From Jeotgalicoccus saudimassiliensis (GTDB taxonomy: Bacteria; Bacillota; Bacilli; Staphylococcales; Salinicoccaceae), in NCBI RefSeq assembly GCF_000756715.1, contig NZ_CCSE01000001.1:620001-684000 (forward strand): a DNA stretch of 64,000 nt, given 5' to 3'. The notes beneath the pieces are model-generated. The model saw only the letters and a list, made by a program, of their open reading frames with translations, had not been told where the DNA came from and made no database searches. Below are positions 13,436 through 61,829 of the stretch, piece after piece (position 1 is the stretch's first letter; each line of letters starts with the position of its first letter). The position numbers and the translations under genes were made by a program.

Positions 13436-14506
13436 TTATAAGAGCTTTTTATCGGTATTTTTATTCATTACCCATCTGACGAGAAGTGCAATACCAATCA
13501 GTACGCCGACATAGCCGAAAATAGGATAGAAAAAGTTCACGAGATCTACGAAGCCGACGAATGTTAAAGTGTAGCCGATGACGAGTGAGGCAACGAGCAG
13601 CATTTTATATTTCATTGAGTACGGCTTTGTAAAACGCGCGAGGAATGCATACATCAGTCCGACTACAGTATTGTAGATCAGAAGAATGATAATGATTGAA
13701 AACAGCGTGCCGAATACAGGGTGAATCGCGTTCGCGAGAACCAGTGTCGGCAATGCAACATGATTCGCTTCATCAAGTACAGCGAGCATTCCTGTATTTA
13801 AAAACAGCAGCATAACCAGGAATATTATTGCACCGTAAACCGCACCGCGTCGTGCGATAAACTGCTTATCAGCATCAGCGCCCATAATAGACAGGAAGCT
13901 GAATGCCACACCGATAACGACACCTGAATATGTAATTGCATCAAACCACCACAAACCAGTCGGCGTGCGGTTGATATCGACAATTTCGTTAACCTGGTTA
14001 ATGGCAACTTCCGGATTGAAGATGTTTACGAGTGAAATAATCAGTACTGAAATAATTAAAAATGGTGTGACTGCACCCAGCACAGAAACAATCTTATCGA
14101 AATCCAGCAGCAGCGTGAAAAACGCTAAAATTAATAATACGATAGAACCAATCCACGGCTGAATTCCGAAACTTTCTTCAAAAGCTGAACCGCTCCCTGC
14201 AATCATTATTACTGCGATTCCATACATGAAAAATGCGAAAATATAATCGATCAATGTCCCTGCAGCTTTTCCGAACAGCTTGTGCAGCGGTACTTCATGG
14301 GAAACCACATCGTATCGAAATCCGAGCTTGGCAGTCTGCCTGCTCATAAATAATACACAGATTGCTGCTACTGCAACACCTGCAAAACTCCAAAGTCCAA
14401 AACTGGAAAAGAACTGTAATACTTCCTGTCCTGTTGAGAACCCTGCGCCCACGACAACTCCTGTGTAGGCAAAAGCAAATTTAATTGCATCTTTTTGTGC
14501 TTGCAC
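13436..14506 (-). CDS. YkvI-type polytopic membrane protein, copy 1
   Basis: A 356-residue membrane protein with about ten predicted helices. The first helix carries GAGFSTGQEVLQFF, resembling the unwound substrate-site helix of LeuT-fold transporters; a second conserved segment, WWFDAITYSG, is near residue 180. It belongs to the YkvI family, whose substrate is unknown. Start is GTG at 14506, after AGGAGGAG. Two paralogues follow at 16.3 and 17.5 kb. Because copy 1 abuts the allantoin operon, uptake of a ureide is a possible role, but it is on the other strand and the family is often described as a putative amino-acid-type transporter. Confidence 0.7.
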   Translation of the reverse strand: MQAQKDAIKFAFAYTGVVVGAGFSTGQEVLQFFSSFGLWSFAGVAVAAICVLFMSRQTAKLGFRYDVVSHEVPLHKLFGKAAGTLIDYIFAFFMYGIAVIMIAGSGSAFEESFGIQPWIGSIVLLILAFFTLLLDFDKIVSVLGAVTPFLIISVLIISLVNIFNPEVAINQVNEIVDINRTPTGLWWFDAITYSGVVIGVAFSFLSIMGADADKQFIARRGAVYGAIIFLVMLLFLNTGMLAVLDEANHVALPTLVLANAIHPVFGTLFSIIIILLIYNTVVGLMYAFLARFTKPYSMKYKMLLVASLVIGYTLTFVGFVDLVNFFYPIFGYVGVLIGIALLVRWVMNKNTDKKLL

Positions 14507-14744
14507 AAAAATCTCCTCCTAAATAAATAACACAAGTTAACATAATAACATAGTTAACTGATGAAAATAACCGCGAATATGTAAAATGTCACATATACTT
14601 TTGAGGTAATTTATGTAATTTTATTTCTAAATCGTATTAATACAGTTTTACGATTTTTGTATGATGTGGAGGAGTTGCCGTTTTTACTGCTTATTTTGAT
14701 GTATAAATGAAGGGAATAAATCATTTACAGGAAGGAGCATGAGG

Positions 14745-15722
14745 ATGTTCTTAAACACGAGAAGTAAACCGATGGACTTACAATTTTACGAAACACTGGA
14801 GAAGCGCTGCGAACTGTCAAAAGTTGAAAGCGGGCGGCTGCACACATACCGGAATGGATTCACAGGTGAGTGTTTATACGATCAGCTGTTTGACGAAGCG
14901 GGTCATGAAGACGTTTTAATATACCGTGATCTTTATCTTCAGACAGAACGTTCAGTCACTCAGTACGATGCGCTGATTATTAACGATGACGGAATCGTCG
15001 TGAATGAAATTAAAAACTACACCGGTGAATATAGAATAGAAGGCGGGGAATGGTTCCGAAACGACAGGCAGATATCTGAAAATCCGGCCGCACAGCTCAG
15101 TCGTGCGACAGGCAAACTGATTAGAATACGAAACTCAGTTAACGCAGGTTTTAACATAAGCGGCCGGCTGATATTTGTGAGCGACGACTTTTATCTGCAG
15201 ACCGATGACGATTCCATATGGCGGAAACTTGTGGTGCGTATGGATTTGAAACGGTACATGAGAAGTTTCCGCGGCGGACATGTCGGAAATAAAGCGCAGT
15301 ATATCGCGCGGCTGATCAGTGAACGGATAGTTGAGAACCCGTATTTTGAAGCTGATGTTGATGCCGAGCGCTTGCAGAAAGGATTTTACTGCGGCGCCTG
15401 CGGCAGTTTTAGCCTGCAGAAGTCGCGATTTCATCTGGTGTGCAGTTCGTGCGGCAGTAAAGAAAGTAACGAGACGCATCTTTTACGTGCGCTGGCGGAT
15501 TACCAGTGTCTGTTTTACGGAAAGCCGATGCCGAGCCGGTCATTTATGGAGTTTATAGGTTATAGATTGAGCCGAAGAATTGTGCAAAGAGTGTTATTGG
15601 AGCATTGTGACGTTGATAAAAAGGGCAATCAGACGACTTACTCTTTGAAGTATCGTAATTTTGAAGAAAAAACGGTTAAATTACAGAGGAGTTATAAATA
15701 TAAGGACTATTTGACAAAATAA
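14745..15722 (+). CDS. NERD-domain protein with C-terminal zinc ribbon
   Basis: A 325-residue protein with a nuclease-related NERD domain over about residues 30-150; the core acidic and lysine residues are in VNEIKNYTGEYRI. Near residue 215 a zinc ribbon follows, with CGAC and CSSCGS pairs. NERD proteins are thought to act on DNA, but few have a tested activity. The ATG at 14745 is chosen because it is seven bases from AAGGAG, whereas the ATG at 14739 is too close. The stop is only nine bases before the first hairpin array, and no other terminator is visible, so the array itself may end the transcript. Confidence 0.78.
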   Translation: MFLNTRSKPMDLQFYETLEKRCELSKVESGRLHTYRNGFTGECLYDQLFDEAGHEDVLIYRDLYLQTERSVTQYDALIINDDGIVVNEIKNYTGEYRIEGGEWFRNDRQISENPAAQLSRATGKLIRIRNSVNAGFNISGRLIFVSDDFYLQTDDDSIWRKLVVRMDLKRYMRSFRGGHVGNKAQYIARLISERIVENPYFEADVDAERLQKGFYCGACGSFSLQKSRFHLVCSSCGSKESNETHLLRALADYQCLFYGKPMPSRSFMEFIGYRLSRRIVQRVLLEHCDVDKKGNQTTYSLKYRNFEEKTVKLQRSYKYKDYLTK

Positions 15723-15731
15723 ACAGGTGCT

Positions 15732-16295
15732 GGTGTACTTCGCGGCGTTAACGAGGTGCACCGGCGTATTTTGGTGTACTTCGCGGCATTGACGAGGTGC
15801 ACCGACGGGTTTTGGTGTACTTCGCGGCATTAACGAGGTGCACCGGCGGTCTCTGGTGTACTTCGCGGCATTAACGAGGTGCACCGTCGTGTTTTGGTGT
15901 ACTTCGCGGCATTAACGAGGTGCACCGGCGTGTTTTGGTGTACTTCGCGGCATTAACGAGGTGCACCGTCGTGTTTTGGTGTACTTCGCGGCGTTAACGA
16001 GGTGCACCGTCGGGTTTTGGTGTACTTCGCGGCATTAACGAGGTGCACCGGCGGGCTTTGGTGTACTTCGCGGCATTGACGAGGTGCACCGTCGTGTTTT
16101 GGTGTACTTCGCGGGATTGACGAGGTGCACCGTCGTGTTTTGGTGTACTTCGCGGCATTGACGAGGTGCACCGTCGTGTTTTGGTGTACTTCGCGGCATT
16201 GACGAGGTGCACCGGCGGTCTCTGGTGTACTTCGCGGCATTAACGAGGTGCACCGGCGGTCTTTGGTGTACTTCGCGGCGTTAACGAGGTGCACC
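15732..16295. repeat. Hairpin-repeat array 1: 14 units, 41-bp period (family A)
   Basis: Fourteen units start every 41 bp without exception (15732, 15773 ... 16265). Each has an 11-base arm GGTGTACTTCG, a 9-base loop of CGGCATTAA type, the arm CGAGGTGCACC, and a 10-base spacer usually ending in TTTT. Both arms are identical in all 14 copies; the loop varies only at positions 4, 5 and 8 and the spacer varies freely. The two non-Watson-Crick pairs are G-U when the plus strand is read as RNA. The array fills the gap between the converging NERD and YkvI-copy-2 genes. It leaves the minus strand open in all frames, which is a by-product of the repeat. Confidence 0.95.
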
Positions 16296-16308
16296 GGTCT
16301 CGACAAAA

Positions 16309-16337
16309 CCCCCGTCCTCACTAAGCGAGGACGGGGG
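16309..16337 (-). terminator. Terminator of YkvI copy 2
   Basis: Perfect 11-bp stem, CCCCCGTCCTC with GAGGACGGGGG, around a 7-base loop. On the minus strand it is followed by TTTT. Confidence 0.85.
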
Positions 16338-16346
16338 TATCAACGT

Positions 16347-17423
16347 CTACAGCAGTTTTTTCTTCGTATTCTTATTCACTATCCAGCGGATTAACAAAGC
16401 AACAGATATCGCAAGTCCGATGTAACCGAGTATCGGATAGACGATGTTGACGAGCTCTACGAAGCCGACGTTCGAGACGAGATAGGCTACGATCAGTGCG
16501 CCGACGAGCATGATTTTGTATTTTCCTGAAAATGGTTCTGTAAAACGTGTCAGGAACGGATACATCAGTCCGACGACTGAGTTGAATATGAGCAGAATAA
16601 TGATAATCGAATAGATTGCGCCGAGCCACGGTGCGATGTTACTCGCCATTTCCATTGCCGGCAGTGGCACATTGTTCGCAGACGGCATAATCGACAGAAC
16701 CCCGATATTGATAAGTACCATCATGACCATCATAATCAGCCCGCCGTATATAGCACCGCGTCTTGCGATGGCATGGCGTGCCGCTTCCGATCCCATAATC
16801 GATAAAAAGCTGAATCCCGTTGCGAGTGCAAGTCCTGCATAAGTAATTGCATCGAACCACCAGAATGACGATGGTGTGCGTGACGGATCAACGACGCTGT
16901 TGACTTCCGAATAAGGTGTTTCCGGATTTAATATGTTGTAGCCTGCAATAATAATTACCGCAACGACTAACAGCGGTGTAATTCCGCCGATAATGTTGAC
17001 GATTTTATTAAAGTCGAGCAGCAGTGTACAGAATGAAATAAAGATCATTATCAGTACACCGATCTGCGGATGTATTCCGAAGGCCTGGTTAAATGTAGCA
17101 CCGCTTCCTGCGATCATCACGACTGCGATTCCGTATAGGAAAAAGATTAAAACGTAGTCGATGACACGTCCGAGTTTTTCACCGAATAAGGCGCGGAGCG
17201 GTGTTTCGTGTGAGTCTGCATTTAATCGGAAGCCGAGTTTTGCAGCCTGTCTTCCGAAGAACATCAGTATAAGCGCTGCGAGAATAATACCTGCAATACT
17301 GATCATACCGTGACTTGCGAAAAACTGCAGCACTTCCTGGCCGGTTGAAAATCCGGCACCGATAAGGATGCCGGCATACGCAAATCCTATGCGCCATGAG
17401 GCGCGGTTTTTACCTTGTGACAT
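16347..17423 (-). CDS. YkvI-type polytopic membrane protein, copy 2
   Basis: A 358-residue paralogue of the 13.4-kb gene with the same plan: GAGFSTGQEVLQFF in helix 1, GIAVVMIAGSGATF near residue 105, and FWWFDAITYAG near 185. A basic C-terminus ends in KNTKKKLL. It starts with ATG after an AGGAGAT site and has its own terminator. It is closer to copy 3 than to copy 1 in the ASHG(M/L)ISIAG segment, so these two arose by a later duplication. Function is not known beyond probable secondary transport. Confidence 0.7.
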   Translation of the reverse strand: MSQGKNRASWRIGFAYAGILIGAGFSTGQEVLQFFASHGMISIAGIILAALILMFFGRQAAKLGFRLNADSHETPLRALFGEKLGRVIDYVLIFFLYGIAVVMIAGSGATFNQAFGIHPQIGVLIMIFISFCTLLLDFNKIVNIIGGITPLLVVAVIIIAGYNILNPETPYSEVNSVVDPSRTPSSFWWFDAITYAGLALATGFSFLSIMGSEAARHAIARRGAIYGGLIMMVMMVLINIGVLSIMPSANNVPLPAMEMASNIAPWLGAIYSIIIILLIFNSVVGLMYPFLTRFTEPFSGKYKIMLVGALIVAYLVSNVGFVELVNIVYPILGYIGLAISVALLIRWIVNKNTKKKLL

Positions 17424-17500
17424 AAATTCATCTCCTGTTAGTGGTTTACATAACTTATATATAAACTAATCTCAAAAAGATAAACATCTCACAAACCACA

Positions 17501-17527
17501 AAAATACCCCGCATTATGAATGCGGGG
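17501..17527 (-). terminator. Terminator of YkvI copy 3
   Basis: CCCCGCATT and AATGCGGGG pair around three bases, followed on the minus strand by TATTTTT. Confidence 0.8.
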
Positions 17528-17532
17528 GGAGA

Positions 17533-18636
17533 TTATTCATCGCTGCTGTCAGACAGTCTTTCAGCAAGTCTGCGGGTTTTCAATTTAAGGAATACCCAGC
17601 GGATAGTCAGCATCAGTCCGATGATTAACCCGACGTACCCGAATAATGGATAGATGATGTTAACGAGTTCAACGAAGCCGACATAAGTACCGAAATAACC
17701 GACTACGAGCGCTGTTACAAGCAGGATTTTATATTTTTTCGACCCGGGCTTTGTAAAACGTGCCAGGAACGGGAATAGAAATCCGACGATTGAGTTATAG
17801 ATTAATAATATAATAATTACCGAATAAGCTGTACCGAACCATGGTGCTATATTCGATGCCATTTGCATTGTCGGCAGTGCGACATCGTATGCTGCCGGCA
17901 GAATCGAAAATACACCAAATGTGATGAGCAGCATCAGGAACATAATGAGCAGTCCGCCGTAAACTGCGCCGCGGCGTACGATTGACTGACGTGCTGATTC
18001 TGAACCCATAATCGACAGGAAACTGAATGCTGTTGCCAGCGTGAATCCCGAGTATGTTACTGCATCAAACCACCAGCTGCCTGTCGGTGTGCGCGATGGA
18101 TCATTATACTGATTCACCTCAGACAATGGTATCATCGGATTTAATATGTTGTATCCTGCAATGAGGAACAGTGCGATTACGAGCAGCGGAGTAATTACTC
18201 CGATTACGGATACGATTTTATCGAAATCCATTAATAATGTAATAAATGCAAGGATTATCAGGATGATTGCTCCTGCCTGAGGGTGAAGTCCGAAGCCTTC
18301 ATTAAATGTTGCGCCGCTTCCTGCAATCATGACGATTGCCAGTCCGTAAAGGAAGAATGCGAGGATTATATCAATAATCAAACCGATTTTTTTCCCGAAC
18401 AGTGTGTTCAGCGGGAGTACATGGGACTCAGCGTGTGTGGAATATCCGAGTTTTGCCGCCTGACGGCCGATGAACATGATAATCAGGCCTGTTAAAATTA
18501 CGCCTGCAATACTGATTAAACCGTGACTTGCGAAAAACTGCAGTACTTCCTGGCCGGTCGCAAACCCCGCACCGACGACGATGCCGGTATATGCAAACGC
18601 ATATTTCCAGGAGGCACGTTTGTTACCTTTTGTCAT
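17533..18636 (-). CDS. YkvI-type polytopic membrane protein, copy 3
   Basis: A 367-residue member of the same family, with helix-1 motif GAGFATGQEVLQFF, GSGATFNEGFG near residue 110, and WWFDAVTYSG near 187. It has a longer acidic tail (LSDSSDE) that the other two lack. Each of the three copies has a separate ribosome site and terminator, so they may be expressed separately and serve different substrates. The conserved first helix suggests a shared sodium- or proton-coupled transport mechanism; this is inference from the fold. Confidence 0.7.
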   Translation of the reverse strand: MTKGNKRASWKYAFAYTGIVVGAGFATGQEVLQFFASHGLISIAGVILTGLIIMFIGRQAAKLGYSTHAESHVLPLNTLFGKKIGLIIDIILAFFLYGLAIVMIAGSGATFNEGFGLHPQAGAIILIILAFITLLMDFDKIVSVIGVITPLLVIALFLIAGYNILNPMIPLSEVNQYNDPSRTPTGSWWFDAVTYSGFTLATAFSFLSIMGSESARQSIVRRGAVYGGLLIMFLMLLITFGVFSILPAAYDVALPTMQMASNIAPWFGTAYSVIIILLIYNSIVGFLFPFLARFTKPGSKKYKILLVTALVVGYFGTYVGFVELVNIIYPLFGYVGLIIGLMLTIRWVFLKLKTRRLAERLSDSSDE

Positions 18637-39910: not shown

Positions 39911-40229
39911 CGGATGACAACGGCGATTCCCCGTTGTGAACCGAGCGTCCCCGGATGACAACGGCGATTTCCCGTTGTGAACCGACCACTCCCGAATGAC
40001 AACGGTGATTTCCCGTTGTGAACCGATCACCCCCGGATGACAACGGCGATTCCCCGTTGTGAACCGAGCGGCCCCGGATGACAACGGCGATTCCCCGTTG
40101 TGAACCGAGCGGCCCCGGATGACAACGGCGATTTCCCGTTGTGAACCGACCACTCCCGAATGACAACGGTGATTCCCCGTTGTGAACCGAGCAGCCCCGG
40201 TTGACAACGGCAGTTCCCCGTTGTCAACC
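39911..40229. repeat. Hairpin-repeat array 2: 8 units, 41-bp period (family B)
   Basis: Eight units have their ACAACGG arm at 39917, 39958, 39999, 40040, 40081, 40122, 40163 and 40204, exactly 41 bp apart. Each has ACAACGG, a 7-base loop and CCGTTGT; the flanks CCGGATG and GAACCG extend the pairing to about 14 bases with two mismatches. The last unit is a perfect 12-bp inverted repeat (GGTTGACAACGG and its complement). The array is placed between the terminators of ccdC and the facing DUF2621 gene. Both strands have open frames through it, but this is due to the repeat and not to coding. Confidence 0.95.
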
Positions 40230-41496: not shown

Positions 41497-41549
41497 GTAC
41501 GTTATGAAGTATGATAAAATCAGTATAATGACATTAAGAGGTGACTACT

Positions 41550-42665
41550 ATGCGGATTTTACATACAGGTGACTGGCATATCGGCCGCAAAATGAACGGT
41601 CTCGATTTAATCGATGATCAGGCATACATACTTGAGAAATTAATGACTGAAATAGAAACCAATGACATTGATATCGTTGTCGTTGCCGGAGATATTTTCG
41701 ACCGCGCAAATCCGTCGCAGCGCGCATTAAAGCTTGCGAATGAGATGCTTTACAGAATCAATATTACGCTCCAAAAACCGCTCCTTGTCATCAGCGGTAA
41801 CCACGACAGCCGTGAAAGATTGAACTACGGCAGCGAGTGGTTTAAAGCTACGGATTTTCATATTAATACGGAGCTTGATGAGGCACACATTCCGGTCACA
41901 ATTGGTGATACGGATTTTTATCTGCTGCCGCATCACGAAGTACTTGAGGCGCGTAATTATTTCCAGGATGATGAAATTCATTCCCATCAGGATGCTTACG
42001 GTAAAATTATTGAGAAGATTGAAGAGAACCTCGACCAGGACAAGACGAACATTCTGATCGGTCATTTATACTTATCGGACAGTATCGAAAGTGACTCTGA
42101 ACGTCCGCTGTCGATGGGACTGAGTGAAGCGGTATCTGAAGACACGTTCAACAGCTTTGATTACTCGCTGTTTGGGCATCTGCATCATCCGTTTGCGGTA
42201 AACAGCGAAAAAGCATTCTACAGCGGTTCGCTGTTGAAGTATTCATTTTCTGAGCATAAGCAGCCGAAAGGGTACAGAATTATCGATACCGATGAGAAGA
42301 AAGTGTCGTTTATCCCGCTTGAACCGAAACACGATGTCGTTGTATTTACCGGTGATTATGAAGCAGTAATCAATGAAACAGTGACGTTTAAAGATAAAGA
42401 TGCGTACTTTAAGTTTGAACTGGCGAATATGAGTTATGTGACAGAACCGATGAGTAAAATTAAAATGATCTATCCGAATACGCTTGAGCTGAAACCTTTA
42501 ATTGAAGATAAATCGTCAGATCTTCAGACTGTTGATATGACGACGACCAGCGATGCTGAAATTTATGAGGCGTTTATCGAAACGACGCTCGACAGAAATG
42601 TAACGGATTTTGATAAGACGATGTTTAAGTCATATTTTGCAGGTGAACATAATGAAACTGATTAA
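41550..42665 (+). CDS. sbcD: SbcD exonuclease subunit (Mre11-like)
   Basis: A 371-residue metallophosphoesterase that with SbcC forms the ATP-dependent nuclease cutting hairpins and palindromic DNA. Metal-site motifs are in order: HTGDWHIG near residue 5, VAGDIFDRANPS near 47, SGNHDSRERL near 83, GHLYLSDS near 170 and FGHLHHPF near 210. The ATG at 41550 is spaced from AAGAGGTGA; the GTG nine bases earlier is part of this site. It overlaps sbcC by 14 bases. Its substrate preference is of note given the long hairpin arrays in this window. Confidence 0.95.
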   Translation: MRILHTGDWHIGRKMNGLDLIDDQAYILEKLMTEIETNDIDIVVVAGDIFDRANPSQRALKLANEMLYRINITLQKPLLVISGNHDSRERLNYGSEWFKATDFHINTELDEAHIPVTIGDTDFYLLPHHEVLEARNYFQDDEIHSHQDAYGKIIEKIEENLDQDKTNILIGHLYLSDSIESDSERPLSMGLSEAVSEDTFNSFDYSLFGHLHHPFAVNSEKAFYSGSLLKYSFSEHKQPKGYRIIDTDEKKVSFIPLEPKHDVVVFTGDYEAVINETVTFKDKDAYFKFELANMSYVTEPMSKIKMIYPNTLELKPLIEDKSSDLQTVDMTTTSDAEIYEAFIETTLDRNVTDFDKTMFKSYFAGEHNETD

Positions 42666-45654
42666 TTTAAAAGTAGAATATTTCGGACCGTTTGAAACTG
42701 AAGAAATTGATTTCAGCAGTCTGAACAACAAATTGTTTCTGATCAGCGGACGTACGGGTTCCGGCAAGACGATGATTTTTGATGCGATTGTTTATGCGCT
42801 TTACGGCAGTGCCTCGACGACCGGACGTGACGAGGAATCGCTCCGCAGTCAGTTTGCACCTGCCGACAAACAGGCACAGGTTAAACTGACGTTTGAAGTA
42901 CGCGGAAAACAGTATACGGTCGAACGCACGCTGAAATACCATAAGCCGGGTAATAAGAGTGCCACACCACCGAAAGCTGTACTGTATGACAGCGAAAATA
43001 ACATTCTCGCAGGCAAGCTGAATGAAGTACGGGATGCGGTGGAGGATATCGTGAAGCTGAACCGTGCACAGTTCAGAAAAATTTTAATACTGCCGCAGGG
43101 TGAGTTTAAGGAGCTGCTTGTGTCATCGAGTACAGATAAGCAGGAAATTCTAAGAACGTTATTCCAGACAGGACGTTTCCTGAACTTTGAGCTGAACTTA
43201 AAAGAAAAGCTGAAAGAACAGTCGGCGGAAGCTTCAAAACTTGATATGAGAATTAACGAACGGGTTAAGCACATACATACTGAAGATATCGATATTACAG
43301 AACAGCAGGAATTCCCGAATTACAACATCGTGCTGGAATACGCGGACGGCGTCATATTCAGCTATGAAAAGAAACTTGAGGAACTGACAGAAACAGGTAA
43401 AAAGCTGAAAGAGGCATATCAGGAAAAGCAGTCGGTTCTTCAGAAAAAAACACAGCATAATGAACAGGTTGATAAATTGAACGCACTGACTGAGTCTCAA
43501 AGTGTACTTAACGCACAGGCCGGGTCAATTGAACAATGGCGCAGTGACATTGCAACATTTGAGTCTGTCTCGACGATTAAATACGAGCTGCTCCGTCATA
43601 AGGAGCTTGGAGCTTCAGCAGATGAGATTAATAACAGTTTGTCTAAAGAGCGGGAACTGGAACAGTCGCTGTCGGAGAAGCTTAAAAACAGTCAGACTGA
43701 ACTGGAAGAAACAGAGAGAAACATTCCGGATATGAACAAGAGGCAGCAGCAGTATTACAGCAGAGAATCATTTTTATCTACTGAGTATGAAACGCTGACT
43801 GATGATATTGAATCACTTTCGTCAGAACTGGAACAGAAATCTGCAGACGGTGAAAAACTGAAGGAATCGATTACAGAAACAAAAGCATCTCTCGGGAAAC
43901 TAACCGCAACACGCAGCGAAGCTGCAGAGCTGCAGGAAGAGCACAGCGAACTCCGGGATCAGTGTAAAGATCTTGAGAACGACGTTGAAGCCGCACATTC
44001 AGATAAGAAACTGCTTAATGAACGCAGCGATATTAAAAACAAGATTCAGGCAAACAACGAAACCATTGCCGGTCTTAAAGAAGAAGTGAAGCTTTTTAAC
44101 AGCAATCTCGCTCATTACGATGAGGAAACCGTACAGACATTGAATCATTTAATCAATCATCTGGAACTCGGAACAGCGTGCCCGGTCTGTGAACAGACTG
44201 TCCTCGAACTGCCGGAATCAGGCGGGTTTTCTGAAGAAGACAGAGTCCGTCTGAATGCACTGCAGGAACAGCTGGCGGAACATGAAGAGGAAAACCAGAA
44301 ACATGTGATACGCATCGATGTAATCGATGAGCTGCTGAAAGATAAAGAGCCGCAGGACCCTGCCGCGCTCGAAACAGAACTTGAAAAGTTAAATGAACAA
44401 AAAGCGGCAGTTTCTCTAAAGCTGGAGAAAGCAAATAAAGAACTGGAAGAGAAAGAACGATTAAATACCGAACTGACTAAACAAAATGAAACGGTTCATT
44501 CACTCGAGCTGAAACATCAGGAACTTAAAAGTACAGCAGCCGGGCTGGCGGATAAACAGCAGAACTTTAAAGATGTTACAGGATTTACCGATTACAGCGA
44601 CTTTAAAGTTCATATGAATAATGAGCGTGAGTTTATAAAAGAGTTCCAGAACAATTTAAATGTACTGAAAGAAAAGGTAACCGATTTAACGAAACAGCAT
44701 GAACTGTGCGCTGCAAAAGTGAAGTCACTTGAAGCGGATTACAATAAGACAATGGATTCTAAAATCCAGTTCAGCACTGCAATTGACTCGTTTATGAGAA
44801 AAAATGAGTTTACGAGTGAGTCAGTTCTCCACGATATTATTAACGACGAGTCGATCAGCGCCAAAAAAGATAAGGTGAAATCACACGATGATGAGAATTT
44901 ATCTCTTACTAACAATATTAAAGAGCTTAAAAGTTCACTCGAATCTGTGGAGAAGTTTTCTGTCGATGAGGACAAAGCGGCTGTTTCGGCAGCAGAAGCT
45001 GAGCTCGAGGCTGCACGCGAATATTATGCTGCCGTGAAGGAACGTATGAACCAGAACGTTTCCTCAAGGGCGTATCTTTCGAAATTAATTGATACGTTCA
45101 ATGCATCGTACGAAGAGTTCAGTAAACTGAACGAGCTCGTTGAAGCAGTGCAGGGGAAAAAAGGACAGAAAGTGTCGCTTGAACGATACGTTCTGACGTA
45201 TTATCTCGAGCGTATTCTGGAGCTTGCGAACGTCCGTCTGACTGCGATGACGAATCACCGTTACAAGCTGCAGCGGAGCATGAAGAAAGTGAACCGTTAC
45301 AGCGGACTCGATATTGAAGTGTTTGATTTCTACAATAACCAGGCCCGTAATATCAATTCGCTGTCCGGCGGGGAAACGTTCCAGGCATCACTCGTACTTG
45401 CGCTGGCTTTAAACGAAGCGCTGCAGCAGGAGTCTGGAGGAATTACACTCGATACGATGCTGATCGATGAAGGATTTGGCACGCTCGACCATGAAACACT
45501 TGAAGTGGCAATATCAACATTGATTGATCTGCAGACGACGGGCAAGACAATCGGAATCATTTCCCACGTCGAGGAATTAAAAGAGCGCATGGAACATATT
45601 TTATATGTTAAACCTGAAAATGAACGGAGTACGACCGAGATTGTGACACTGTAG
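42652..45654 (+). CDS. sbcC: SbcC exonuclease subunit (Rad50-like ATPase)
   Basis: A 1000-residue SMC-like ATPase. Walker A GRTGSGKT is at residues 33-40; long coiled coils run to about residue 850 and are broken at the tip by the zinc hook CPVC (Cys510 and Cys513); the signature SLSGGETFQ and Walker B MLIDEGFGTLD are near the C-terminus. ATG at 42652 begins within sbcD and is preferred over an earlier in-frame ATG because GGTGA precedes it and the ATPase head begins directly with MKLINLKVEYFGPF. With SbcD it removes hairpins and blocked ends. Confidence 0.95.
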   Translation: MKLINLKVEYFGPFETEEIDFSSLNNKLFLISGRTGSGKTMIFDAIVYALYGSASTTGRDEESLRSQFAPADKQAQVKLTFEVRGKQYTVERTLKYHKPGNKSATPPKAVLYDSENNILAGKLNEVRDAVEDIVKLNRAQFRKILILPQGEFKELLVSSSTDKQEILRTLFQTGRFLNFELNLKEKLKEQSAEASKLDMRINERVKHIHTEDIDITEQQEFPNYNIVLEYADGVIFSYEKKLEELTETGKKLKEAYQEKQSVLQKKTQHNEQVDKLNALTESQSVLNAQAGSIEQWRSDIATFESVSTIKYELLRHKELGASADEINNSLSKERELEQSLSEKLKNSQTELEETERNIPDMNKRQQQYYSRESFLSTEYETLTDDIESLSSELEQKSADGEKLKESITETKASLGKLTATRSEAAELQEEHSELRDQCKDLENDVEAAHSDKKLLNERSDIKNKIQANNETIAGLKEEVKLFNSNLAHYDEETVQTLNHLINHLELGTACPVCEQTVLELPESGGFSEEDRVRLNALQEQLAEHEEENQKHVIRIDVIDELLKDKEPQDPAALETELEKLNEQKAAVSLKLEKANKELEEKERLNTELTKQNETVHSLELKHQELKSTAAGLADKQQNFKDVTGFTDYSDFKVHMNNEREFIKEFQNNLNVLKEKVTDLTKQHELCAAKVKSLEADYNKTMDSKIQFSTAIDSFMRKNEFTSESVLHDIINDESISAKKDKVKSHDDENLSLTNNIKELKSSLESVEKFSVDEDKAAVSAAEAELEAAREYYAAVKERMNQNVSSRAYLSKLIDTFNASYEEFSKLNELVEAVQGKKGQKVSLERYVLTYYLERILELANVRLTAMTNHRYKLQRSMKKVNRYSGLDIEVFDFYNNQARNINSLSGGETFQASLVLALALNEALQQESGGITLDTMLIDEGFGTLDHETLEVAISTLIDLQTTGKTIGIISHVEELKERMEHILYVKPENERSTTEIVTL

Positions 45655-47210: not shown

Positions 47211-47778
47211 GTTGGATGACAACGGGGATCCGGTGTTGTGAACCGGGGTGGTTCGATTGACAACGGTGATTTGCCGTTGTGAACCGGGGTGGTTTGATTA
47301 ACAACGGTGATTCGGTGTTGTAAACCGGGGTGATTTGATTAACAACGGTGGCCCGGTGTTGTAAACCGGGGTGATTTGATTAACAACGGTGATTCGGTGT
47401 TGTAAACCGAGGGAGTTCGATTGACAACGGTAATCCGCCGTTGTGAACCGGGGTGGTTTGATTAACAACGGTGGCCGGCCGTTGTGAACCGGGGTGGTTT
47501 GATTAACAACGGTGCCCGGCCGTTGTGAACCGGGAGGGTCTGATTAACAACGGTGATTCGGTGTTGTAAACCGAGGGAGTTCGATTGACAACGGTAATCC
47601 GCCGTTGTGAACCGGGCGAGTTTGATTAACAACGGTGCCCGGCCGTTGTGAACCGGGCGAGTTTGATTAACAACGGTGCCCGGCCGTTGTGAACCGGGCG
47701 AGTTTGATTAACAACGGTGCCCGGCCGTTGTGAGCCGACCATTTCTCAATTGACAACAGGCATCTTCCGTTGTCAATT
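47211..47778. repeat. Hairpin-repeat array 3: 14 units, 41-bp period (family B)
   Basis: Thirteen ACAACGG arms start every 41 bp from 47219 to 47711, and a fourteenth at 47753 after a 42-bp step. The partner arm is CCGTTGT in most units and GTGTTGT in five. The sequence after each hairpin has AACCGGG. Unit types are mixed within the array, as if formed by repeated duplication of blocks. The last unit has extended arms, AATTGACAAC and GTTGTCAATT. It lies between the terminators of the DJ-1 and DUF5058-partner genes, which converge. Confidence 0.95.
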
Positions 47779-53923: not shown

Positions 53924-53970
53924 AACCGCCGTATCAATTATACGGCGGTTCTTTTCTTTTTTATTTTTTT
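53924..53970 (+). terminator. Terminator after the comC-radC genes
   Basis: AACCGCCGTAT and ATACGGCGGTT form an 11-bp perfect stem, followed by a long T-rich run. Confidence 0.92.
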
Positions 53971-54154
53971 ATATAAGAAAATATTATCATAAAATAAGTA
54001 AATGTATTGTATTTTCCTATCCATCTCTGATATATTATTTGTGTAAACAGTCCCTGATGGGACAAATAATGAACCGATAGATTGTGAGGGGATTGAATCA
54101 ATGTGGCAGAGTCTGATTGAAACACAGAAGAGTCTTGTACCGGATATGCTGTCT
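53968..54154 (+). repeat. Direct repeat copy 1: duplicated cggR promoter and 5' end
   Basis: 187 bp that recur at 54170-54356 with four differences and no gaps. It contains a promoter (TTGTAT / TATATT), the palindrome GTCCCTGATGGGAC at 54050-54063, a GTGAGGGG ribosome site and the first 18 codons of cggR. Copies are 15 bp apart. Confidence 0.95.
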
Positions 54155-54178
54155 TATCTTTGTTATTTGTTTATATAA
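54101..54178 (+). CDS. Truncated CggR leader peptide made by the duplication
   Basis: Starts with the same ATG and 18 codons as cggR (MWQSLIETQKSLVPDMLS) behind an intact ribosome site, then continues for seven unrelated codons (YLCYLFI) to TAA at 54176-54178. It could be made as a 25-residue peptide. The stop lies in the start of the second repeat copy, upstream of its promoter. It lacks the DNA-binding domain, so a function as repressor is not expected. Confidence 0.5.
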   Translation: MWQSLIETQKSLVPDMLSYLCYLFI

Positions 54179-54356
54179 GAAAATATTATCATAAAATAAG
54201 TAAATGTATTGTATTTACCTATCCATCTCTGATATATTATTGGTGTAAACAGTCCCTGATGGGACAAATAATGACCCGATAGATTGTGAGGTGATTGAAT
54301 CAATGTGGCAGAGTCTGATTGAAACACAGAAGAGTCTTGTACCGGATATGCTGTCT
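54170..54356 (+). repeat. Direct repeat copy 2: working cggR promoter and 5' end
   Basis: The second copy of the 187-bp repeat. It leads into the complete cggR gene. Differences from copy 1 are single bases, including GTGAGGTG instead of GTGAGGGG at the ribosome site. Confidence 0.95.
54252..54265. promoter_or_regulatory. Probable CggR operator (GTCCC-N4-GGGAC)
   Basis: GTCCCTGATGGGAC is a perfect palindrome with the GGGAC/GTCCC core found in CggR operators of Bacillus subtilis. It is downstream of the TATATT -10 element, so the repressor would block elongation. An identical palindrome at 54050-54063 belongs to the upstream repeat. Confidence 0.7.
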
Positions 54357-61647: not shown

Positions 61648-61721
61648 TAAAAACAAATTATTAAAAATTGTTTGACAATTAAATCGTGTTGCTCTAGTAT
61701 GAAATACAATTAAATAAGAAA

Positions 61722-61820
61722 ATTATCCAGAGAGACGGAGGGATCAGGCCCTGTGAAATCTCAGCAGCAGGCTTTTTAAGTACTGTGCTAATTCCTGCAG
61801 GCAGCGGCTTGAAAGATAAT
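61722..61820 (+). promoter_or_regulatory. SAM-I riboswitch (S-box)
   Basis: The S-box core is clear in order: ATTATC, AGAGAGACGGAGGGA, GGCCCTGTGAAA, CAGCAGCAGG, GTGCTAATTCCTGC and TTGAAAGATAAT, which closes the P1 helix with the start. It precedes the metNIQ transporter and represses it when S-adenosylmethionine is plentiful. Confidence 0.96.
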
Positions 61821-61829
61821 CATACAATG

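Follow-up and report, generated by a model that had tools for sequence, protein, structure and literature searches.

What keeps the arms of a palindrome constant through fourteen tandem copies, while the bases between and around them vary, is the question raised by an array in the genome of Jeotgalicoccus saudimassiliensis, here called array 1. The array was analysed within a 64,000-nucleotide stretch of this single-contig, 2.19-Mb genome (the window, to which coordinates refer unless another locus is named), and was compared with further arrays of the host genome and its relatives.

Structure and setting of array 1

Array 1 lies on the plus strand at 15732–16295 (564 bp) and, read directly, is composed of exactly 14 complete imperfect palindromes, each 31 bp long, with a 10-bp spacer in each of the 13 gaps between them. 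The first palindrome occupies 15732–15762 and the others follow at a 41-bp step, unit k (0–13) starting at 15732 + 41k; Tandem Repeats Finder places the array at 15731–16297 with a period of 41 and 13.8 copies. The unit, assigned to family A, can be divided as GGTGTACTTCG-9-CGAGGTGCACC or as 12-7-12. On the 11-9-11-10 division none of the 308 arm letters is changed, whereas changes occur in 3 of the 9 loop columns (9 of 126 letters) and 5 of the 10 spacer columns (23 of 130 letters), which is the pattern of invariant arms, a loop variable at three positions and a spacer variable at several that the preliminary description had recorded. The probability that none of the 8 variable columns would hit an arm by chance is 8e-4. 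Pairing in the unit is imperfect: on the plus strand G faces T at two of the 11 pairs, where the minus strand consequently has A-C.

The array is positioned between two convergent genes. The upstream neighbour (14739–15722, plus strand) encodes a 327-residue NERD-domain protein and ends 9 bp before the array; terminator prediction detected no terminator in this 9-bp gap, so array 1 is probably transcribed. On the other flank, a minus-strand gene (16347–17423) encodes a 358-residue multi-span membrane protein or transporter, which has no Pfam match and shows 83–87% protein identity to Jeotgalicoccus species. An intrinsic-terminator-like hairpin of this gene (16305–16337, minus strand), with a stem of about −26 kcal/mol running into a T-rich tail on that strand, lies directly beyond the array. 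Three paralogous minus-strand membrane-protein genes, 55–65% identical, are found within 13436–18636, two of them flanking array 1 and the NERD gene.

Two other arrays in the window share the 41-bp period but carry different arms. Array 2 (39912–40229) contains 8 palindromes of the form GGATGACAACGG-7-CCGTTGTGAACC at a 41-bp period (family B), and array 3 (47214–47778) contains 14 palindromes that are family B variants, with a 41-bp period, one 42-bp step and a 164-bp higher-order repeat. The last unit of array 2 (40199–40229) is a perfect 12-bp palindrome, as are the last unit at locus L106 (10146–10176 of that locus) and the array end at L135, the internal units being mismatched at fixed arm positions; striking as it is in these three arrays, a perfect terminal palindrome is absent from the averages and was rejected as a general rule. 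Genes resembling sbcD and sbcC, a hairpin nuclease pair named by eye from sequence, lie between arrays 2 and 3 (41541–45654); sbcD keeps its synteny in seven congeners, and the placement may therefore be coincidence. The window also holds a tandem pair of 202-bp copies, 96% identical, at 53950–54356.

Family A occupies six loci in the host genome and is absent from the nine congeners examined. A genome-wide search with its pattern, allowing up to 3 mismatches, gave 74 matches (reversed control, 0), and the family B pattern gave hundreds. Array counts come from sampled stretches, some of them chosen around known matches; the 264 kb not picked in this way, window included, contain 10 arrays, which extrapolates to roughly 80 arrays per genome with a rough interval of 40–150.

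Conservation of the arms

Minority fractions in 42 arrays were 0.046 for arms, 0.155 for loops and 0.154 for spacers. The arms, in arrays of many unrelated sequences, thus vary about one third as much as loop and spacer, and they were less variable than the loop in 40 of the 42 arrays and than the spacer in 40 of 42 (p about 1e-8). These figures strongly support the earlier proposal of selection on the arms, and they uphold its companion argument, that neutral duplication alone is insufficient, since even in arrays unrelated in sequence the arms hold constant much better than the remainder of the unit. The loop, which lies inside the hairpin, and the spacer, which lies outside it, vary at the same rate, making mutation-prone loops unlikely as the cause. 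At five family A loci spanning 580 kb, only 4 odd letters were found among 1342 in the 22 arm columns of 61 units, with loops and spacers whose letters are specific to each locus. Two ortholog pairs from congeners (L128 versus L136, consensus units) agree at 46 of 48 arm positions and 28 of 34 loop and spacer positions.

Frequent conversion guided by the palindrome, offered initially as the alternative to selection, is only partly supported; it is unneeded and fits poorly, the arms being common to arrays hundreds of kb apart while the adjoining loops are locus-specific. The suggestion that selection acts through the stem also stands in part: symmetry has been kept over the long term, as covariation described below indicates, but pairing alone is insufficient. 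The two G-T wobbles of family A are retained in nearly all of the 61 units, and the variation of non-pairing arm columns is less than half that of loop columns (0.057 versus 0.142; p = 2e-7). In the unit-level stem counts compensating double changes were found in no unit, and G-T stands to A-C as 22:17, indicating neither preference nor strand asymmetry; a strand-specific hairpin, hinted at by wobble asymmetry among families, was rejected when the hint disappeared from these counts. Folded as single strands, units of both family A and family B do better than shuffled sequences (in family A, for just one of the strands), and fixed mismatches are present in most internal stems. Recognition of the arm sequence at the DNA level appears to be a simpler reading than either pairing or conversion.

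Unit length, shared layout and placement

The census of periods covered 1.87 Mb sampled from the host genome and its family. Periods of 41 (48 arrays), 42 (5), 50 (1) and 51 (7), with three others, were found in 64 noncoding tandem arrays, so that 61 of the 64 fall at 41–42 or 50–51 and none at 25–40, 43–49 or 52–70; 400 kb from other families of the order contained zero such noncoding arrays. Units in the 41-bp arrays are all head-to-tail, with 376 steps of exactly 41 bp, five of 42 and one of 38, and array ends coincide with palindrome edges, the identity of the outer spacer being about 4/10 as against 8.8/10 internally. Steps of 41 and 51 bp nearly equal four and five helical turns, respectively. 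Helical phasing is a plausible reading, though short of proof: two or three ancestors may have given rise to the families, and unit lengths may cluster partly on account of those few ancestral superfamilies. The 50–51-bp units form a second class with longer centres, represented at L100 (17209–17831), L248 (12053–12177), L270 (3449–4028) and L257 (4847–5236), and the arms GGTGATAAGT/ACTTATCACC of this class are common to the host genome and the distant G004. A coding role was rejected because 41 is not divisible by 3 and an open frame is missing from most arrays.

A single layout fits 45 consensus units of the 41-bp arrays: a spacer ending in GTTT, a 12-base arm, a 7-base centre and a second 12-base arm. 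Near the centre a G-C pair is almost invariant, and a small number of units match the layout poorly. The consensus flanks are (G)GTTT before the unit and a G-rich stretch after it. Across 28 units, whose rotation was helped by pairing, 83% of stem cells are paired and 93 cells are changed on both sides as compared with 37 after shuffling (score 0.69 versus 0.25), also far exceeding slid controls. A sequence-only leave-cluster-out alignment, not fully converged, gave 60 two-sided cells versus 27 shuffled. Such compensating changes between families indicate that dyad symmetry has been maintained over long times, an outcome equally expected from a hairpin. A covariance model detects units in one other genus and in every congener except G004.

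Among 45 arrays with both neighbours, 27 are in convergent, 18 in same-direction and none in divergent contexts (p = 8e-11 and 3e-4), relative to a crude gene-pair baseline of 140 convergent, 557 same-direction and 141 divergent. Predicted terminators commonly separate gene and array, on one or both sides, which leaves many arrays outside the transcripts predicted; on one side, array 1 departs from this order. The array sites persist while their contents turn over between species. The gap that holds array 1 contains, in five congeners, a 41-bp array in the same orientation with different arms. In the gap of array 2, three species carry family B (8, 9 and 2 units), another has a 42-bp family, two more retain remnants and a further two show a bare shared terminator; the gap of array 3 likewise switches family between species. 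A CCATGT/ACATGG core is present at many places in three congeners and is almost missing from the host genome. A duplicated terminator was suggestive of an insertion footprint at array 2 but was not repeated at arrays 1 or 3, and this candidate was set aside.

Known relatives and possible functions

The units resemble dif and loxP, tyrosine-recombinase sites with two arms of 11–13 bp around a free 6–8 bp centre, in being two-arm sites with a free centre; they differ in forming long head-to-tail arrays with many arm families and no matching recombinase set. A CRISPR array was rejected, as the spacers are only 10 bp and mutually similar. The closest known kind is the REP/BIME group, extragenic imperfect palindromes of 20–40 bp in high copy, downstream of genes in convergent or same-direction gaps, with several families per genome and clustered copies (PMC3733652, PMC2817692). 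The arrays described here are similarly built of 31-bp dyads in hundreds of copies and several families at 3′ intergenic positions. However, the GTAG/CGTC tag at the palindrome foot is missing from the 41-bp units, the Y1 RAYT transposase is missing from the host genome, and BIMEs alternate in orientation whereas these arrays are head-to-tail at a fixed 41-bp step; because tag, transposase and orientation all disagree, the arrays should not be filed under REP/BIME. Gyrase targets E. coli REPs (as cited in PMC3733652), and gyrase-binding BIME-2 elements share with our arrays the rows of palindromic units at 3′ ends, but the unit sequences of the two are unrelated. The STAR element of Staphylococcus aureus is a GC-rich 14-bp motif, found singly at most loci and otherwise with at least 40 bp between motifs; it likewise forms intergenic direct repeats in related bacteria, with variable copy number and species-dependent locations (PMC3532100). 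The arrays here instead have a 31-bp dyad every 41 bp and other sequences, and the STAR motif T(G/A/T)TGTTG(G/T)GGCCC(C/A) (PMC3532100) was not seen on reading array 1. Such arrays were not found described in these bacteria among open-licence papers.

We assign a probability of about 0.45 to the reading that array 1 is one of several dozen dispersed noncoding phased docking arrays for putative dimeric sequence-specific DNA-binding factors. Observed directly are the exact 41-bp steps, whole palindromes at array ends, arm conservation, a shared architecture with covariation, placement after genes, family turnover at fixed sites and the failure to detect a transposase of the tested kinds. The exact spacing, whole units, conserved arm sequence, free centre and spacer, and absence of strand bias are in keeping with rows of two-half-site sites for such factors. 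Each palindrome would offer two half-sites to a putative, probably dimeric, factor, and every arm family would have its own factor or specificity. With a spacing of four helical turns (five in the 50–51-bp families), bound dimers would all come to lie on one face of the DNA, and the array would build up an ordered nucleoprotein patch in the space between gene ends. More tentatively, such a patch may serve neighbouring units as a topological or transcriptional buffer, a role proposed for gyrase-binding BIMEs in E. coli. Counting against the docking reading, several specificities are needed if arms are recognised, since several arm families share one genome; the probable transcription of array 1, a possible ancestral origin of the clustered unit lengths and a covariation that would suit a hairpin equally well also weigh against it.

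The main rival, on balance unlikely, is a selfish REP-like repeat, with the palindrome serving as substrate for a putative nuclease, recombinase or replication process by which units are copied. Units with altered arms would not be copied, which would hold arms constant; the cell would gain nothing, and arrays would survive in 3′ pockets because they are harmless there. This would suit a family A private to the host genome among nine congeners yet present at six loci, the switching of family at shared sites, arrays made of whole units, and a REP-like position downstream of genes and in convergent gaps (PMC3733652). The searches for a mobiliser, however, argue against it. No Y1 (RAYT) transposase (PF01797) was found in the host or the array-rich congeners, PF01797 fragments occurring solely in G004, where the covariance model detects no unit, and no reverse transcriptase or IS110 domain exceeded the cut-off in array-rich congeners. 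Tyrosine recombinases are XerC and XerD-like with sporadic others whose distribution does not track the arrays; serine recombinases are present in the host, yet only as degenerate fragments in array-bearing G001 and G002, with intact copies patchy. Both were rejected as mobilisers, and arrays matched nothing on phages, plasmids or viral contigs.

The remaining readings are less likely than docking array or selfish repeat. Selection on structure only, in which DNA hairpins or cruciforms matter whatever their sequence, for instance as extrusion sites or through replication-fork effects, is improbable: two-sided covariation and the folding of family A and B units agree with it, but near-invariant G-T pairs, conserved non-pairing columns, the absence of a G-T over A-C bias and fixed internal mismatches do not. 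An RNA function, with rows of 3′-end hairpins acting on either strand as back-up terminators or exonuclease barriers, has about one chance in ten by our estimate. Every array is situated beyond the end of a gene, array 1 comes straight after the NERD gene with no terminator detected between the two, and hairpin clusters have been proposed as terminators (PMC8355165); against this, a predicted terminator precedes many arrays, stem changes lack strand asymmetry, and Rfam models matched the arrays far below threshold, so that a known structured RNA family was rejected. The sole Rfam match passing gathering is a SAM riboswitch (S-box) at 61720–61822 (73.9 bits). Neutral satellite DNA arising by slippage and unequal exchange could produce higher-order periods of 164 and 123 bp and copy numbers that differ at orthologous sites, but is very improbable given the arm conservation in unrelated arrays, ends phase-locked to the palindrome and a unit length constant across families.

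Palindromic repeats outside genes are usually credited to RAYT transposases or to RNA hairpins, and here a dense set exists without the transposase. With many arrays outside predicted transcripts, a rigid unit length and sequence-specific arm conservation, a DNA-level function or a putative mobiliser becomes testable. A broader and rather doubtful possibility is that the arrays are a chromosomal element of a new kind, with dozens of orthologously placed, helically phased dyad-site arrays, several putative lineage-specific factors, nucleoprotein patches in gene-end gaps and a switching of recognition sequence at sites that stay in place, a situation that partly recalls eukaryotic satellites with the proteins that bind them. 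The change of family at orthologous sites is a natural experiment on the turnover of bacterial repeat populations.
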